Source: Calditrichia bacterium (GTDB taxonomy: Bacteria > Calditrichota > Calditrichia > RBG-13-44-9 > J075). Taken from it: a stretch of 64,000 bases of DNA. The position numbers and the translations under genes were made by a program. Shown here in pieces: positions 16,852-25,756 of the stretch. Positions within the stretch are counted from its first letter, which is position 1; every line of letters starts with the position of its first letter. The stretch covers positions 1 through 64,000 of the forward strand of contig JANQQU010000002.1 of NCBI GenBank assembly GCA_028284905.1, given 5' to 3'. The notes beneath the pieces are model-generated. The model was not told where the DNA came from. It worked only from the letters and a program-made list of their open reading frames with translations, and did no database searches.

Positions 16852-19716
16852 TCACTTTTTCTCGTCTTCCAAATAAAACAACGACTCCACCGGTCGAAGT
16901 GGGCGGTTCATCCACAATGGCCGTCGTAAACCTCCCGGTCCCGGTGCCGGACGGGTCATCGCCAGCCATTCCCGGTATATTTCCATGGATTTTTCCGTAT
17001 CGACTTCTACGTCGCCATAACGGTCATCAGCATGTGCTTTTTCGATGCGTACCTTCTGATGCCAGCAATGCATACCGCTAATCGGGTCCGGATGTACCGG
17101 GAAAGTGATATTTTGATGCACGCCACCATCGCTCCAGAAGATGCGGCGGGAATCCGGATCTTCACTATCGAATGGCCGCACACCATCTAATACGCGCATT
17201 TTAAACTTGCCGCTATTTTCTTCAATAGCAACGGTATTGGTCGCCCAGCGATTGCCAATTTTATCCTGTGGACGACGCCAGCGACCGAGGTGATGAGAAC
17301 AAGCGACAATGCCCGGTTTAATCCCTTCCGTTACCCAAACTTTGTCGACAAAGTAACCAATATCCGTATTTACCCGAACCAGGTCACCGGTTTTGATGCC
17401 GAGCCGCGCACCATCGCTGGTATGCATCCAGACCGGATTCCGGTTGGATATTTCCGTCAACCATTTGGCGTTGGCGGAACGGGAGTGAATCAACGTGGGC
17501 AATCGGAAAGTCGGCACCAATGGAAAGTCGCCTTTTTCCCGGTCCATATTTTCTTCGTGAATATGACTTTTGATGTATGCCGGAATCTGATACTCCGGCC
17601 AGCCCCAATCGACCAACGTTTGCGAATAAAACTCCTGCTTCCGGGATGGCGTGGGAAATCCGCTGACTGCCTTGCCATCAACCATTACGCCCAATGCTTG
17701 CCCATCGCGGGTAATCAGTCCGGTTTTTTCATCAACTTTCGCGCCTTTCAGGGCGCTTTCCGGAATCGCTTTCAAATGCTTTTCGTATGAAGTTGATTCC
17801 ACTTCAAACGCACCATATTTGCGCATGTATTCCAATGGAGCAAGTCCCTCTTCCGCCGCTTTCTCCGGCAGGTTCGGGGTATGCTCGAAGATAAAGCGGT
17901 AATATTCTTCGATGGAAATCTTCTCACCGTCGCGATACGGGGAAATAAAGTGCTCCCGAATGCCCAGGCTGCCATCAGGATCGATTTGCCAGGAAAGTTC
18001 GATCCAGAACTCATCTTCTTCCCATACCTCGCCAGGATTGGCTTCCCAGGTAAACTCGACATCTTTCCCCTGGCGGCGCAGCGCTTCCCGCAACACCGGC
18101 TGGCGGTAGGCCACCCACATACCGGAATGAGTTTCGTAGCTGAGCAGATCATGACGTTCGCCGGAATGCCCCATCGGTAGAACATAGTCGGCATAATATG
18201 CAGTTTCGTTCCAGGTTGGGGTTAGGGCGATATGCATGCCCACCAGCGATTCATCAGAGAGCGCATCCATCCAGACAAATCCATCCGGGTAGGTCCAAAC
18301 CGGATTGAATACCCGGGAGAAATAAACGTCCATTTTCCCCCTGCCCTCTTTCAGGAAATGCGGTAGTAATTGGCTCAGTTCATAATGCGCCAAGGGATAT
18401 TCCTTCGGGAAATGCAACTCATTCCAGAACTTCTGCGCCGGCGGTTTATCAAAAAATGTCGGCTTGTATTTATTCCAGCCACTGGGCGAAGTACCACCAA
18501 CGGTACCAACGCTACCGGTAAGCACATTGAGGAAATGGAGGCAACGGGACACCGCCCAACCGCCAAGGTTACCGCTACCGGCGCTCCGCCAGTTGTGGGT
18601 GGAAAAACGCTCGCCGGCTTCACCGATTTTCCGGGCGACATTTACGATCATCTCCACATCAATTCCTGCTTCTTTTGCAGCGAATTCTGGGGTGTACTCC
18701 CTATACTCTTCCTGCATTGCGGCGATAAAATTTTCGAAGCTGGCTGTTTTTTTCGGATGCACATTAGCCATATAGGATTCCCAATTCACCCAATTCCGGA
18801 TAAACGCTTCATTGTAGAGGCCTTCATCGAGAATCACCTTGGCCATCGCCAGCAGTACTGCCGCTTCCGTGCCCGGATAAGTCGGCATCCAGTAATTTGC
18901 CATGCTCGCGGTGTTAGAGAGACGCGGATCCATTACGGCCAGCTGGGCGCCATCCATCATCCCTTCGATGATCCGCTGGGCGTGAGGATTAAAATAATGG
19001 CCCGATTCCAGATGCGCGCTGATCAGAAGAATAAAGCGAGCGTTGGCATGGTCCGGGGAAGGGCGATCATAGCCATGCCAAATCGCATAGCCAAAGCGGG
19101 CGCCGGAAGAGCAAATATTGGTGTGGCTGTTATGGCCATCGATTCCCCAGGATTGTAGCACCCGATTGGCGTATCCTTCATGCCCCGGGCGACCAACATG
19201 ATATGCCACTTCATTATTGCGGCCTTCCTGCAATGCTTTCCGGATTTTTGCGGCGATATCTTTTAGCGCTTCATCCCAGCTTACCCGCTCCCATTTTCCC
19301 TCTCCCCGCTTCCCGACGCGCTTTAACGGATAGAGAATACGATCCGGGTCGGTAATCTGGTTAATGGTGGCCGGCCCTTTTGCGCAGTTTCTCCCCCGGC
19401 TGCCGGGGTGATACGGATTGCCTTCGAATTTCCGTACAGACATATCATCCTTATCTACATAGGCGAGCAGGCCGCAGCCCGCTTCGCAATTGAAGCAGCT
19501 GGTCGGCACAATCATATAATTTCGTTTTTCCCGGCGATGCCCGCTGGTCGCCTCGTATTCTGCCCAGTCATCCCACTTTTCCGGCGGTGGATAATCGGTC
19601 AAATTACCTGCTTCATTAAGGCGTGGCAAGGCAGCAGTTTCCTCATGCAGGTTCGGGATCAGGCGCAGTTTTTCTGCAATTTTTTCAATAAAGGTTGGTT
19701 TATGTTTTGTTGCCAT
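16852..19716 (-). CDS. Molybdopterin oxidoreductase catalytic subunit (Psr/Phs/Soe-like)
   Basis: A catalytic subunit of the complex iron-sulfur molybdoenzyme family, 954 residues. The 4Fe-4S ligands are Cys74, Cys77, Cys81 and Cys111 (CFNCEAGC and GRNCAKGP). Cys202 in TNICSSGARFGY stands where the family places the Mo ligand, as in polysulfide/thiosulfate reductases and sulfite dehydrogenase SoeA. The C-terminal dinucleotide-binding domain is present, with LVPTFRLPT and NPVWMHTSDGARLGIKTGD. There is no twin-arginine signal, so the subunit probably faces the cytoplasm as SoeA does. Its partner, just upstream, is an FeS-NrfD fusion, and two SulP anion transporters come next. Sulfur oxyanion chemistry is therefore plausible but not proven; the sequence alone does not decide between reduction and oxidation. 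Shine-Dalgarno GGAGATAG. Confidence 0.9.
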   Translation of the reverse strand: MATKHKPTFIEKIAEKLRLIPNLHEETAALPRLNEAGNLTDYPPPEKWDDWAEYEATSGHRREKRNYMIVPTSCFNCEAGCGLLAYVDKDDMSVRKFEGNPYHPGSRGRNCAKGPATINQITDPDRILYPLKRVGKRGEGKWERVSWDEALKDIAAKIRKALQEGRNNEVAYHVGRPGHEGYANRVLQSWGIDGHNSHTNICSSGARFGYAIWHGYDRPSPDHANARFILLISAHLESGHYFNPHAQRIIEGMMDGAQLAVMDPRLSNTASMANYWMPTYPGTEAAVLLAMAKVILDEGLYNEAFIRNWVNWESYMANVHPKKTASFENFIAAMQEEYREYTPEFAAKEAGIDVEMIVNVARKIGEAGERFSTHNWRSAGSGNLGGWAVSRCLHFLNVLTGSVGTVGGTSPSGWNKYKPTFFDKPPAQKFWNELHFPKEYPLAHYELSQLLPHFLKEGRGKMDVYFSRVFNPVWTYPDGFVWMDALSDESLVGMHIALTPTWNETAYYADYVLPMGHSGERHDLLSYETHSGMWVAYRQPVLREALRRQGKDVEFTWEANPGEVWEEDEFWIELSWQIDPDGSLGIREHFISPYRDGEKISIEEYYRFIFEHTPNLPEKAAEEGLAPLEYMRKYGAFEVESTSYEKHLKAIPESALKGAKVDEKTGLITRDGQALGVMVDGKAVSGFPTPSRKQEFYSQTLVDWGWPEYQIPAYIKSHIHEENMDREKGDFPLVPTFRLPTLIHSRSANAKWLTEISNRNPVWMHTSDGARLGIKTGDLVRVNTDIGYFVDKVWVTEGIKPGIVACSHHLGRWRRPQDKIGNRWATNTVAIEENSGKFKMRVLDGVRPFDSEDPDSRRIFWSDGGVHQNITFPVHPDPISGMHCWHQKVRIEKAHADDRYGDVEVDTEKSMEIYREWLAMTRPAPGPGGLRRPLWMNRPLRPVESLFYLEDEKK

Positions 19717-19747
19717 ATCTATCTCCGAGTATGATCCTTTACTTGAT

Positions 19748-19780
19748 CATTGAAAATTGTTCATTCGACATTGGATATTT
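19748..19780. repeat. Solo copy of the 4HB-element end repeat
   Basis: A 33-base stretch matches the right end of the four-helix-bundle cassette (49172-49204) at 27 of 33 positions, including the final TTGGATATTT. It lies between the NrfD-fusion and molybdoenzyme genes and could be a scar or a free copy of the end. Confidence 0.7.
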
Positions 19781-19810
19781 ATCTTTATAACAATGCGCAT
19801 TTCCTTAAAC

Positions 19811-21454
19811 TTAACTTAAGGGAATCATCTGCGGTGCCTGCACCCAAATGTGCTCGGTAATGTAAATGCCAATCAGCACCAACGCACCGGCGACCGGCAG
19901 CATGGCGCTTCCCAGGGCAAGCAGCAAGACCAGCGGGAGTAAATTCCCCAACAGGATTGCACCGCCCCAAAATGCAGTACGATAGCGTCCGGAAAGGATT
20001 GATTTCACGGTTCGGTGCGCATCTTCAGTCGGATGCGTCGTCGTTAATTCGCTAACAAGAATAAGCAGATTTGCAAGAACAGCGCTGATCAAAGTGATAT
20101 TCAGGAAGGATTGCCAGCCACTGCTAGTAGCAGATGCCATCATAAATATGGACAAAATAGCACTACCCGCCATAATTGAATGAACAAGCATATGCAGTGA
20201 CAGCGTTGGGCTTTGCCAAAAATCGCGGCCTTTTGCCTGTGCGAAAAGAAAAGCAGTGTAAACCGCAGTAATTACCGCAAAAATAGCACCGCCCCATAAT
20301 GCAACGCTTGTTAAAGCTGGCAGACCGGCCCATTTTCCGATGCCCCAAAGCGTTAGCATCGCACCATAAATTGTAATCGCATAACCTCCTTTAGTTAGCC
20401 AGGATTGCCATTGCGGACGCAGCAATACGTACAGAAACCGGCCGGGTTGATCGAGATCTTTAATCAACAAAATACCGGTGAGGGTCAGGAACAGCAGCGC
20501 GCTTCCCCACCCCAGCCAAACGCTGCTTTCCGGCTGAGCGACGCCAAACATTGCCGCCATATAAATCAACAGGAAAGAACCGGCAGCAATAGCTTTCGTC
20601 CAGACATATGCAGACACTTCCCAGCCCCATAATACTCCCTTTGCCGGTGCATCATAAACCCGCCGGGCTTTTGTGCGGAGCAAATCGGTAATCGGGTTGC
20701 CGTTCCCCTGCAAAGCTTCACTATCCGGCAATGCTTTCCCTGGCGTGTGGTCGTCAGAGCCATTATCGCCAGAAAGTTGTTTCACCATGGTAATGGGATC
20801 GGCCTTCGCAATCAGCGATTCTGCATACTTGGCAAAATGCCCGACGCCGCTGGACTGGGCGCTCCACATGTAGTCGCTTTGTTGAGGAGTGGCCGTTGGG
20901 TTCAGAGAAACTTCATCGCCATCAATGTAGAAGAGTTTGGGACGAGTGCCTTTTTCAACTTTCCGGGCAGTCACCTGCTCCGTTGCAATCAGTTGCGCAA
21001 TTTCAGAATTGGGATTGTCCATATCTCCGGAAATGATCGCATGCTCCGGGCAGACATTCACACAAGCCGGCTCCAGGCCAATATCCACCCGGTGCGAACA
21101 ATAATTACACTTGGCAGCGGTATGGGTTTGCGGGTCGATGTACAGTGCATCATATGGGCAAGCCTGCATGCACGCTTTGCAGCCGATACATCGCCGCCCA
21201 TCAAAATCGACAATACCATCATCCCGCACATGCAAGGCTTCCACAGGGCAAATTTCCACACATGGTGCACTTTCACAATGATTACAGCGCATCACGGAAA
21301 AGAGCCTGCGAGTGTGCGGATACTCCCCTTTTTCAATATACTTCACCCAGGTACGGTTCACTCCCACCGGCACATCATGCTCGGACTTACAGGCCACCGT
21401 ACAGGCATGGCACCCGATGCACTTGCGATTATCAATCACAAATCCGAAATTCAT
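19811..21454 (-). CDS. Four-cluster ferredoxin fused to NrfD-type membrane subunit
   Basis: One polypeptide combines the electron-transfer and membrane-anchor subunits of a molybdoenzyme. The N-terminal 190 residues have four cysteine groups like PsrB/DmsB: CIGCHACTVAC, CNHCESAPCVEIC, CIGCKACMQAC and CNYCSHRVD with a distant CVNVC, enough for four 4Fe-4S clusters. After a soluble linker, residues from about 275 to the end contain about eight hydrophobic helices of the NrfD/PsrC type, which exchange electrons with quinones. In most relatives these are separate genes. I chose the second ATG (21454) since GAGG lies six bases before it; a start at 21460 adds two residues. It lies 94 bases ahead of the catalytic subunit gene. 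Confidence 0.9.
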   Translation of the reverse strand: MNFGFVIDNRKCIGCHACTVACKSEHDVPVGVNRTWVKYIEKGEYPHTRRLFSVMRCNHCESAPCVEICPVEALHVRDDGIVDFDGRRCIGCKACMQACPYDALYIDPQTHTAAKCNYCSHRVDIGLEPACVNVCPEHAIISGDMDNPNSEIAQLIATEQVTARKVEKGTRPKLFYIDGDEVSLNPTATPQQSDYMWSAQSSGVGHFAKYAESLIAKADPITMVKQLSGDNGSDDHTPGKALPDSEALQGNGNPITDLLRTKARRVYDAPAKGVLWGWEVSAYVWTKAIAAGSFLLIYMAAMFGVAQPESSVWLGWGSALLFLTLTGILLIKDLDQPGRFLYVLLRPQWQSWLTKGGYAITIYGAMLTLWGIGKWAGLPALTSVALWGGAIFAVITAVYTAFLFAQAKGRDFWQSPTLSLHMLVHSIMAGSAILSIFMMASATSSGWQSFLNITLISAVLANLLILVSELTTTHPTEDAHRTVKSILSGRYRTAFWGGAILLGNLLPLVLLLALGSAMLPVAGALVLIGIYITEHIWVQAPQMIPLS

Positions 21455-21492
21455 AAGCATCCTCGTTTGTTAAATCTTTGATTTTTAAGTGA

Positions 21493-21621
21493 TTAGGCTT
21501 TAGGCCATAGGCCATTAGGTGTTAGGTTAAAAGATATTACTCCTCGTGTATTATATCGGCTTAACCTGTTTGATATTATAGCATTGCCTAACGCCTAATT
21601 ACCTAAAGGCCTAAGGCCTAT
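21493..21621. repeat. TAGGCCTTAGG inverted repeat, MITE-like
   Basis: Two arms of about 38 bases (21493-21530 and 21584-21621), made of iterated TAGGCC/TTAGG words, face each other around a 53-base centre. The right arm supplies the last codons and the TAG stop of the SulP gene ending at 21611. It fills the spacer between that gene and the FeS-NrfD start. Confidence 0.85.
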
Positions 21622-23308
21622 CTTTATCATTCATGTCTTCACGTTCATCCAGAAAGGATTTTACTGCTGCTTTTTTGCTAAAGAAAAAGTGGTCTCTCCC
21701 TAGTTTCTCATAGAGCCCGGCCCGTGCCATAACATCCCGCACGGGACCTTTTACATTTGTCAGGTAAAACTCGATATCCTGTGAATGAAGCTCATCAATA
21801 ATCTCATGCAATGCCAATGCTGCGGTCGCATCTATTTCATTAATACTGGTTGCGTCCAGAATAAACGCTTTTACCGGTGTGTCTCTTCTGGCAATGCTCG
21901 CCTGAATTTTATCTTTTAAATATGAAACATTGGCATAATAAAGGGATGCATCCATGCGGAAAATAATCAGTCCTTCGATCTCCTCTGCATTCGGGGCACG
22001 TTTGGGATTGCGAAGCACATTGGTCCCCGGTATCTGCCCCAACAGGGCAATATGCGGGCGGCTGATTCGCTGAATTATTAGCACCAACGAAGCGACAGCG
22101 CTAAGAATAATGCCGTAGAAAGCACCAAATAGCGACGTAATTACAAAAGCAAAAACCAACACCATAAAATCCTGACGCCGGATATAGTAGAGACGTTGTG
22201 CTTCGCGAATATCGATCAATCCAATAACCGCTACAATAACGATTGCTGCCAGCACAGCCTTGGGCATATAGTAAAACAATGGTGTAAACAGCAGCAACGT
22301 CAGTCCGATTACCAGGGCGTTAAAGATTGAAGATAACGCGCTTTTCGCACCTGCTTCGGCATTTATCGCCGTGCGGGAAAAACTACCGGCAATGGGATAT
22401 CCGCTAAAGATACCCGCTGCGCTATTGGCAACGCCTAGCGCCATCAATTCCTGATTTGCATTGATGGTATATCCTTCCTTCGCCGCAATTTTTTTCGCAA
22501 CAGCAATCGCCTCCATAAAACTGATCAATGCGATTGTCGCTGCCAGCGGAATCATCTCCAGAATCGTTGACCATTCCAGGGTAGGTATTGCCGGTTTCGG
22601 AAATCCGTCCGGTACTGCCCCGACGATTGCCAGGCCGGTTTTATCCAATCCACTCATCCAGACAAACAAAGTACTGAGAATAATTGCAATCATTGCCCCC
22701 GGCCAGGCGGGCCGCCATTTTTTTAACGCTAGCAGTAACAGCAAGCAACCTAGACCAATTTCCAGACTCACCCAATGCACTTCATGGAGATGATTGCTTA
22801 TTCGCCAGAGCACTTTAAAAATCTGCTGACTTCCCGCATATTCGATCCCCAGTATATGCTTTACCTGGCTAAAAGCGATGATCAGGGCTGCGGCAGAGGT
22901 AAAACCACTAATCAGCGGCTGCGAAAGAAAGTTGACCAAAAAGCCGAGCCGAAACATCCCCATCAGGAACTGCAAAAGACCAACCATTACCGCCAGCAGC
23001 ATTGCCAGCGCAATGTATTCCTCGCTTCCTTGCCGAGCCATTACACTGACTCCAACAGCCACCAGTAGAGAATCCATCGCCACCGGGCCAACGGAAAGCT
23101 GCCGGGAAGTGCCCATTAACGGATAGACGATCAGTGGAATCAATGCGGCATAAAGGCCCATAATCGGCGGTAAACCAGCCAATAAAGCATAGGCCATTCC
23201 CTGTGGGATCAGCATGGTGCCGACAGTTAAACCGGCTATCGCATCATTTTTTATATATCGCCACTCGTACTGGGGAAGCCAGTGAAGAATGGGAAAAAGT
23301 TTTTTCAT
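21611..23308 (-). CDS. SulP family inorganic anion transporter with STAS domain
   Basis: A membrane transporter of the SLC26/SulP family, 565 residues. About 10-12 hydrophobic segments start with PQGMAYALLAGLPPIMGLYA, the SulP signature, and include SFSRTAINAEAGAKS. The cytoplasmic STAS domain (about 430-550) contains AFILDATSINEIDATAALAL. Members move sulfate, bicarbonate or similar anions. It is a tandem paralogue of the next gene (both 565 residues) and lies upstream of the molybdoenzyme subunits on the same strand. The final residues and stop lie inside a repeat, so the original C-terminus may have been changed. The substrate is undetermined. Confidence 0.92.
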   Translation of the reverse strand: MKKLFPILHWLPQYEWRYIKNDAIAGLTVGTMLIPQGMAYALLAGLPPIMGLYAALIPLIVYPLMGTSRQLSVGPVAMDSLLVAVGVSVMARQGSEEYIALAMLLAVMVGLLQFLMGMFRLGFLVNFLSQPLISGFTSAAALIIAFSQVKHILGIEYAGSQQIFKVLWRISNHLHEVHWVSLEIGLGCLLLLLALKKWRPAWPGAMIAIILSTLFVWMSGLDKTGLAIVGAVPDGFPKPAIPTLEWSTILEMIPLAATIALISFMEAIAVAKKIAAKEGYTINANQELMALGVANSAAGIFSGYPIAGSFSRTAINAEAGAKSALSSIFNALVIGLTLLLFTPLFYYMPKAVLAAIVIVAVIGLIDIREAQRLYYIRRQDFMVLVFAFVITSLFGAFYGIILSAVASLVLIIQRISRPHIALLGQIPGTNVLRNPKRAPNAEEIEGLIIFRMDASLYYANVSYLKDKIQASIARRDTPVKAFILDATSINEIDATAALALHEIIDELHSQDIEFYLTNVKGPVRDVMARAGLYEKLGRDHFFFSKKAAVKSFLDEREDMNDKDRP

Positions 23309-23368
23309 CCAGGGCAGGCAGAAAAGTACTTCTGCGATTTAACAAAAGACTACTAAGGCACAAATTAT

Positions 23369-25066
23369 CTAGCCAATAAATTGGATCTCGTTTTCGATAT
23401 CGCTTTTTTCGCCGTTAATATGCATTACCGCATCATGAATACTGAAGAAGAAATGGTCTTCGCCGAGCACTTTATATAATCCTGAGCGGCGAAGCACATC
23501 CCGCACCGGTCCTTTGACATTGGCAAGATAAAACCCGATACCGCGTTCGGTGAGGTCGCGGACGATGCTGTGGAGCATTGCATCCGCTGATGCATCAATA
23601 TCATTAATACTGCTGGCATCGAGGACAATCGCCCGCAAATTTTCTCTCCCCGCTAAAGCATCGATTTGTGTCTTCAGAAATGCGCAATTGGCGAAGTATA
23701 ATGCCGCGTCTATGCGGATAATCGCTATTCCGTCTGGCGATTTTGCTTCCAGGTATCTTTCCAGATTCCGATAAATATCGCTGCCAGGAATTTTTCCCAG
23801 TATCGCCGTGTGGGGGCGGGTCGTACGCCGGATAACCAAAATGAGTGATGCTACGACACTGACCAGAATCCCTTCTTCAATTCCCAATAGCAGCGTGGCA
23901 AAAAATGCTAATAACAACAGGTAAAAGTCGGCTTTTTTTATCGCATATAAATGGCGGGCTTCCTGAATATCAACCAGGCCAAAAACTGCGACCATTATTA
24001 TTGCAGCCAGGGATGCTGTTGGTAAATAGTAGAATAGTGGGGTCAAAAAAAGCAAGGTAATCGCAACCATAATGGCGGAAATAATTGACGCCAGGCCACT
24101 TTTAGCGCCGGCCTGATCATTAACAGCGCTGCGGGAAAAACCACCAGTCACCGGATATGATGAGAAAAATCCACCGGCAATATTCGCCAGACCCAGGCCG
24201 ACCAACTCCTGGTTAGCATCTATAGCGTAACGATGTTTCGCAGCAAAGTTTTTAGCGACCGCAATCGATTCCATAAATCCGACCAGTGCGATCGTTAAAG
24301 CGACCGGCAATAAATCTGTCAGTTGCGCCGTATTAAATTGCGGCAGCGATAGCGCAGGTAATCCTTCCGGCACCGCGCCAACCACTTTCACGCCTGCTTC
24401 GGTCAGGCTCAATCCCCAGGCAGCAAGGGCACCGATCACTACAACCATCAGTGCACCGGGAAAAACCGGTCGCCAGCGCTTCAATACGATCAACAAAACG
24501 ATACTAACGAGGCCAATGCTCAAGGTAAGCGGATTTATGTCGGATATTTGAGAAATGGCGTGCCAGATGGTTTCATGAATATGATGACTGCGTGGAATAG
24601 AAATCCCTAAAAGATGTTTCAATTGGCTAAATCCGATAATCAATGCAGCTGCAGACGTAAATCCGCTGATCACCGGGTGCGAGAGAAAATTGACCAGAAA
24701 TCCCATTCGCCCAATGCCCATCAGCAGTTGGATGATGCCAACCATCAACGCCAGTAAAATAGCCAGCTGAACAAACTGCTCGCTCCCCGGCGTTGCAAAA
24801 TTGCCGATACCGGATGCAACAAGCAAAGAGACCATCGCTACCGGACCGACCGCCAACTGACGGGAAGTACCAAATAAGGCATAAACAAATAAAGGAAGCA
24901 CCGATGCGTAGAGGCCGATTATCGGCGGCAAGCCTGCTAACAAGGCATAAGCCATTCCCTGCGGAATGAGCATTACTGCAACAGTCAGCCCCGCGCTGAT
25001 GTCCCCTTTTAAATCGGCGTTGCGATAATTAACTGACCATTCCAGGAAAGGGAAGTATTTTCTCAT
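23369..25066 (-). CDS. SulP family inorganic anion transporter, tandem paralogue
   Basis: A second SulP protein of 565 residues with the same plan: PQGMAYALLAGLPPIIGLYA near the start, GFSRSAVNDQAGAKS in the middle and a STAS domain with AIVLDASSINDIDASADAML. It is clearly similar to its neighbour along the whole length but well diverged, so the duplication is not recent. The gap to the downstream copy is 60 bases, which suggests co-transcription. No strong Shine-Dalgarno precedes the ATG. Its function would again be anion uptake or export; pairing with the molybdoenzyme points to sulfate or sulfite as candidates only. Confidence 0.92.
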   Translation of the reverse strand: MRKYFPFLEWSVNYRNADLKGDISAGLTVAVMLIPQGMAYALLAGLPPIIGLYASVLPLFVYALFGTSRQLAVGPVAMVSLLVASGIGNFATPGSEQFVQLAILLALMVGIIQLLMGIGRMGFLVNFLSHPVISGFTSAAALIIGFSQLKHLLGISIPRSHHIHETIWHAISQISDINPLTLSIGLVSIVLLIVLKRWRPVFPGALMVVVIGALAAWGLSLTEAGVKVVGAVPEGLPALSLPQFNTAQLTDLLPVALTIALVGFMESIAVAKNFAAKHRYAIDANQELVGLGLANIAGGFFSSYPVTGGFSRSAVNDQAGAKSGLASIISAIMVAITLLFLTPLFYYLPTASLAAIIMVAVFGLVDIQEARHLYAIKKADFYLLLLAFFATLLLGIEEGILVSVVASLILVIRRTTRPHTAILGKIPGSDIYRNLERYLEAKSPDGIAIIRIDAALYFANCAFLKTQIDALAGRENLRAIVLDASSINDIDASADAMLHSIVRDLTERGIGFYLANVKGPVRDVLRRSGLYKVLGEDHFFFSIHDAVMHINGEKSDIENEIQFIG

Positions 25067-25233: not shown

Positions 25234-25461
25234 TTAGATATTTTCCAACTTCTCTGTTATTTCTGCCAATGTCGGAAAGCGGCGTTCCTGCTTCTTGGAA
25301 AAAACCAACTGCTCATTTGCGACAACTTCAAATGCGCCTCCGGACGATTCGATCAGCGTTACTGTAATACCAAATTTTTCTTTTAATTGCTCCGCCAGAC
25401 CGGCGGCTTTCGGGTAATAGTTTCACATTACGCAATATGCAACGGACACTTCTAAAGCCAT
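25234..25461 (-). CDS. SelW-like (Rdx family) selenoprotein with in-frame TGA
   Basis: A 75-residue reading frame with one internal TGA at codon 13 (25423-25425). Read with selenocysteine at TGA, the start is MALEVSVAYCVMUNYYPKAA, giving the CxxU redox motif (Cys10, Sec13) that defines SelW/SelT/SelH proteins. The rest fits the family too: LAEQLKEKFG, SSGGAFEVVANEQLVFSKK, then RRFPTLAEITEKL. The length is normal. A strong Shine-Dalgarno (GGAGGTG, complement of 25469-25475) stands seven bases before the ATG. A hairpin with a GGUCU loop follows the TGA at a SECIS-like distance. Rdx proteins are thioredoxin-fold redox proteins of poorly defined role. The alternative is a sequencing error or a pseudogene, but intact coding on both sides argues against it. 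Confidence 0.85.
25392..25406 (-). promoter_or_regulatory. SECIS-like hairpin with GGUCU loop
   Basis: On the transcript, CCGCC and GGCGG pair around the loop GGUCU, beginning 16 bases after the UGA. The bacterial SECIS of E. coli fdhF, recognised by SelB, has its apical loop around AGGUCU at a similar distance. The stem here is short (5 bp), with no clear lower stem. Confidence 0.7.
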
Positions 25462-25756
25462 TAAAAAACACCTCCATAATTTTGTTCTAGCAAGTTACTA
25501 TTTCCGCCGGAAAGGGACAAGCAACATCACACTTTTTATCTTTTCCAATAAAGTGATACCGCTGACATTTTTCCCAAATACAAACCGGCATATTTGGTAG
25601 CTCATGGCATAATTCTACGCCAAACTGACAGGTTTATTATTGAAATTCGATTTCAGACTAAAATCAGCAATAACAGAAACTTGAGAGATTTTAATTGTAT
25701 GGCATCATATTTGTGGTTTTAGCGCTAACACTGCAAAAAGCAGTGAAGGAGAGAGA
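25462..25756. other. Divergent regulatory region selW/lon side
   Basis: Besides the selW Shine-Dalgarno, this spacer contains a TTGAGA box (25681-25686), a 10-base palindrome TTAGCGCTAA (25719-25728) and a hairpin CACTGC-AAAAA-GCAGTG (25729-25745) directly before the Shine-Dalgarno of the small membrane gene. The hairpin could control translation and the palindrome could be an operator. No gene is seen. Confidence 0.5.

Follow-up and report, generated by a model that had tools for sequence, protein, structure and literature searches.

A SelW-like selenoprotein gene and its SECIS hairpin in a Calditrichota genome

The locus and its gene neighbourhood

The window, the whole 64,000-nucleotide stretch of DNA that was analysed, holds on its minus strand a short frame interrupted by a TGA (Table 1). 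Read from 25461 to 25234, this frame yields the product MALEVSVAYCVM-U-NYYPKAAGLAEQLKEKFGITVTLIESSGGAFEVVANEQLVFSKKQERRFPTLAEITEKLENI, and direct reading shows that the TGA at 25425-25423 is the sole in-frame stop inside it. Each detail that an earlier note on this DNA had given for the frame, namely 75 codons, a strong Shine-Dalgarno site, a lone TGA at codon 13 and the motif C-V-M-U, was reproduced from the sequence. The assembled sequence reads TGA at this site and not a Cys or Trp codon; such a codon in the reads was what the earlier note had named as grounds for abandoning its reading. Three frames in the window have one TGA only, are preceded by a Shine-Dalgarno site and run on for 55 codons or more past the TGA, and the selW-like frame is one of them. 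Because it is both short and TGA-interrupted, the gene is easily missed by default gene finders. Scans for promoters and terminators gave matches at chance level only.

Table 1. Features at the selW-like locus, in window positions.
Feature	Position	Strand	Basis
selW-like selenoprotein gene, 75 codons, TAA stop	25234..25461	-	sequence; PF10262 and NF041051 matches
Shine-Dalgarno GGAGGT, ATG 8 nt further on	25470..25475	-	sequence
Predicted Sec codon UGA (codon 13), CxxU motif C-V-M-U	25423..25425	-	sequence, conservation
SECIS hairpin, 5-bp stem CCGCC/GGCGG, loop GGUCU at 25397-25401	25392..25406	-	fold, covariation, bSECIS constraints
SulP sulfate permease, next gene downstream, 167 nt gap	23369..25066	-	context only

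The SulP gene is not a recurrent neighbour of the selW-like gene among relatives, and we therefore claim no link to selenate or sulfate transport. At the loci of the Caldithrix group (L024, L029-L031 and L034-L040), aroC, identified from sequence as chorismate synthase, comes immediately before the selW-like gene and has the same orientation. A thioredoxin reductase-like gene, likewise named from sequence, is found directly downstream in several Calditrichota (L019, L021, L022, L023 and L027; L074, L083, L094 and L115), but because the two genes converge tail-to-tail, this neighbour is a hint only. In Planctomycetota an ABC-F gene is found beside the selW-like gene. A conserved operon partner that would reveal function was considered and rejected, since the neighbours vary by lineage.

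Elsewhere in the window, the region 16852-25066 on the minus strand carries two SulP genes side by side and, after them, genes for an Fe-S/NrfD fusion subunit and a molybdopterin oxidoreductase, a group that is possibly a sulfur-compound respiration cluster. An in-frame TGA near the molybdopterin oxidoreductase gene was considered as a Sec site and discarded because it precedes the start codon.

Family and predicted fold

For profile searches the TGA was read as Sec and entered as Cys. The product matches the Pfam Rdx family (PF10262; E=1e-19, 70.9 bits against a cut-off of 22.6), the NCBIfam model for SelT/SelW/SelH (seleno)proteins (NF041051; 91.4 bits, cut-off 88) and TIGR02174 (60.6 bits, cut-off 34.2). 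The two residues of the CxxU motif, C10 and U13 in C10-V-M-U13, occupy columns that are invariant across 41 sequences (U written as C). A structure predicted from 41 relatives has a mean pLDDT of 87.5, and its best PDB matches are SelW-related, thioredoxin-like proteins, with TM scores of 0.93 to 2fa8 and 0.71 to mouse SelW. Membership in the SelW-like (Rdx) family, proposed earlier from sequence patterns, is thus borne out by profile scores above the Rdx and SelT/W/H cut-offs and by the agreement of the predicted fold.

Matches by sequence in the PDB are also SelW-related proteins, and the alignments place the Sec codon of the selW-like gene opposite Cys in 2fa8 and 2p0g. The product resembles these two solved proteins in overall sequence and in predicted fold (TM about 0.9), and differs from them in that theirs is Cys where here it is predicted Sec, so that no SECIS would be needed there. 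Cys forms of the family thus exist among more distant proteins.

The hairpin behind the UGA codon

The segment CCGCC-GGUCU-GGCGG starts 16 nt past the UGA, places the loop 21 nt from it, and folds with a minimum free energy (MFE) of -9.5 kcal/mol. The SECIS element of E. coli fdhF is likewise a small hairpin behind a UGA with a GGUCU-type loop; the two are alike in this, whereas gene, stem and spacing differ. Published constraints for bacterial SECIS elements comprise a stem of 4-16 bp with a loop of 3-9 nt, a G at loop position 1 or 2, a UGA-loop spacing of 16-37 nt and an MFE of -7.5 kcal/mol or lower (PMC13188914), and the hairpin lies within all four (5 bp, 5 nt, GG, 21 nt and -9.5 kcal/mol). 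At gathering scores, Rfam gave no match anywhere in the window. Taken alone, the hairpin is weak evidence, because comparable hairpins stand behind 57 of the 2031 TGAs in the window (2.8%) and its single-sequence fold energy is no better than that of shuffled sequences (z = -0.58).

The evidence for a functional RNA comes from comparison. Among 25 sequences, the five stem pairs are kept in 98.4% of cells, and the covariation score is 0.365, compared with 0.135 +/- 0.023 (sd) for shuffled alignments and at most 0.091 when the stem is slid. The second stem pair (21-33) is a standard pair in 79 of 88 distinct sequences (shuffled mean 43.8, maximum 54), occurs as C-G, U-A, A-U, G-C and U-G across species, and has changed state at least 31 times by Fitch parsimony, a rough count on a tree built from short proteins. 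In 85 of these sequences each partner of the pair falls on the third position of an Ala codon, so the pairing cannot be put down to selection on the protein.

These data also bear on whether the conserved AA(S/G)LA peptide by itself accounts for the stem, with the UGA decoded independently of any hairpin. The amino acids do fix the G-C pair 22-32 and parts of positions 20 and 31, and the unremarkable z score of the single-sequence fold also counts in favour of such a scheme. Against this stand the variety of pairs at the free third-position pair 21-33, a standard pair in most sequences, and the control pairs of third positions in the same 88 sequences, none of which rises above its own shuffles. 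We regard a peptide by-product as very unlikely. The hairpin, on this comparative evidence, is under selection as an RNA, and the joint conservation of TGA and hairpin over about 100 homologues is far beyond chance. The earlier proposal that a 5-bp GGUCU hairpin 16 bases past the UGA is a SECIS-like element thus proved exact in its structure and gains support from the published constraints and from covariation, and the locus offers a clean case of a SECIS backed by covariation at synonymous positions. Most Poribacteria homologues, by comparison, carry an A-A mismatch at the second stem pair (loci L092, L096, L099, L103, L107 and others), so this pair can be lost and is not essential everywhere; the SECIS element of Poribacteria may differ.

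Predicted selenocysteine use in the host and among relatives

The host genome (8.55 Mb, completeness 100; the window lies on its contig C33) encodes the entire selenocysteine machinery. A tRNA-Sec with anticodon TCA is found on contig C9 (73 bits), and selB lies on C46 with selA directly upstream; the first part of selA lies at the end of C28, since a contig break cuts the selA-selB operon. The selD gene is on C21 (locus L045:1408-2445, minus strand; 388.6 bits). The earlier note had predicted that selA, selB, selC and selD would be encoded, and held that a genome devoid of selB or tRNA-Sec would undo its reading; all four genes are present, selA being split between contigs. By its single in-frame TGA (MTKEEITKLTHLVTCAGUASKIGPG), the selD gene too encodes a predicted selenoprotein, and this TGA, within TCAGUASK, we take to be the known, classical Sec site of SelD.

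Reading through the TGA of the selW-like gene would also follow if the genetic code of the organism assigned UGA to another amino acid such as Trp. However, TGA ends 5 of the 31 long open reading frames in the window and so also serves as a stop in this genome, the tRNA-Sec, selA, selB and selD are all in place, and the second TGA inside a known gene, that of selD, falls at the classical Sec site. Reassignment of UGA has a vanishingly small probability.

A selW-like homologue was found in 27 of 40 Calditrichota genomes. The TGA is present in 26 of the 27 (two of the 26 being short fragments), and the remaining sequence is masked over the site. A scan of GTDB contigs with a single protein gave no match, its patterns having probably been too narrow or having spelled Cys at the TGA. 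Patterns drawn from aligned sequence downstream of the UGA, which lay outside the TGA so that the scan did not require it, recovered homologues with TGA in all 80 of the closest loci (best 80 of 184). These loci are labelled Planctomycetota, Poribacteria, Zixibacteria, KSB1, Acidobacteria, Deltaproteobacteria and others, and some repeat Calditrichota loci. A Cys form at the TGA site was found neither among these 80 closest (best 80 of 184) nor among the unmasked Calditrichota homologues. A single in-frame stop within an otherwise intact frame is what would be seen in a Cys-type Rdx gene whose codon 13 carried a nonsense mutation or a miscalled base, but such an accident does not account for a codon that reads TGA throughout the unmasked homologues recovered, in many phyla, which we count as refuting it, nor for covariation at synonymous sites in the hairpin behind the TGA, nor for the full Sec machinery of the genome. 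A pseudogene or sequencing error is extremely unlikely.

Frame, family, fold, conserved TGA, selected hairpin and complete machinery are demonstrated computationally, and we hold it to be almost certain that the locus is a genuine SelW-like (Rdx) selenoprotein gene in which SelB and the hairpin would direct Sec to codon 13 of a 75-residue CxxU thioredoxin-fold product. SelB carrying Sec-tRNA(UCA) would bind the hairpin just behind the UGA, selenocysteine would be inserted at codon 13, and the resulting protein of 75 residues would adopt a thioredoxin fold with a CxxU redox pair. From established knowledge of such proteins, the product is most likely a small cytosolic thiol/selenol oxidoreductase.

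The novelty implied by the earlier note was overstated, since the family, the CxxU motif, the SECIS and the annotation misses have all been published and the NCBIfam model NF041051 exists. SelW-like proteins with CxxU and a bacterial SECIS were the most abundant selenoprotein family of the Sargasso Sea data in 2005 (PMC1088965), and the scarcity or absence of Cys homologues in Sec-using bacteria was noted in 2006 (PMC1794560). With these bacterial proteins (PF10262; NF041051; PMC1088965, PMC1794560, PMC2398784) the present one shares length, CxxU, thioredoxin-like fold, a SECIS right behind the UGA and few or no Cys forms among close relatives; it differs in host lineage (Calditrichota) only. 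Epsilonproteobacterial SelW genes, reported in 2015 to have been overlooked by annotation (PMC4607533), are alike in family, 5/6-bp hairpin type and annotation failure and differ in phylum. A literature search of incomplete coverage returned no selenoprotein report for Calditrichota, and its one Caldithrix match concerned another organism. The gene adds one member to an abundant and described bacterial family, in a little-studied phylum, and its practical use lies in better annotation of short TGA-interrupted genes.

Calditrichota encode the selenocysteine trait, and SelW-like genes are widespread in the phylum. Across the 40 genomes, 23 have both selW and selB, 2 have selW only, 6 selB only and 9 neither (the two short fragments not being counted as selW), and the presence of selW follows that of selB (Fisher p = 7e-4, shared ancestry not corrected for). 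Some metagenome-assembled genomes carry selW with no strong tRNA-Sec match, which is probably a matter of genome incompleteness. More tentatively, and with the balance of our judgement against it, a SelW clade with the signature NYYPxAASLAE, spread over many phyla, could be obligately Sec, such that Cys cannot serve its chemistry and lineages drop the gene instead of changing it to a Cys form; if so, the gene would be a tracer of Sec use. One Calditrichota family (f6, six genomes) has no selW, and in it neither selB nor tRNA-Sec scores over the cut-off.
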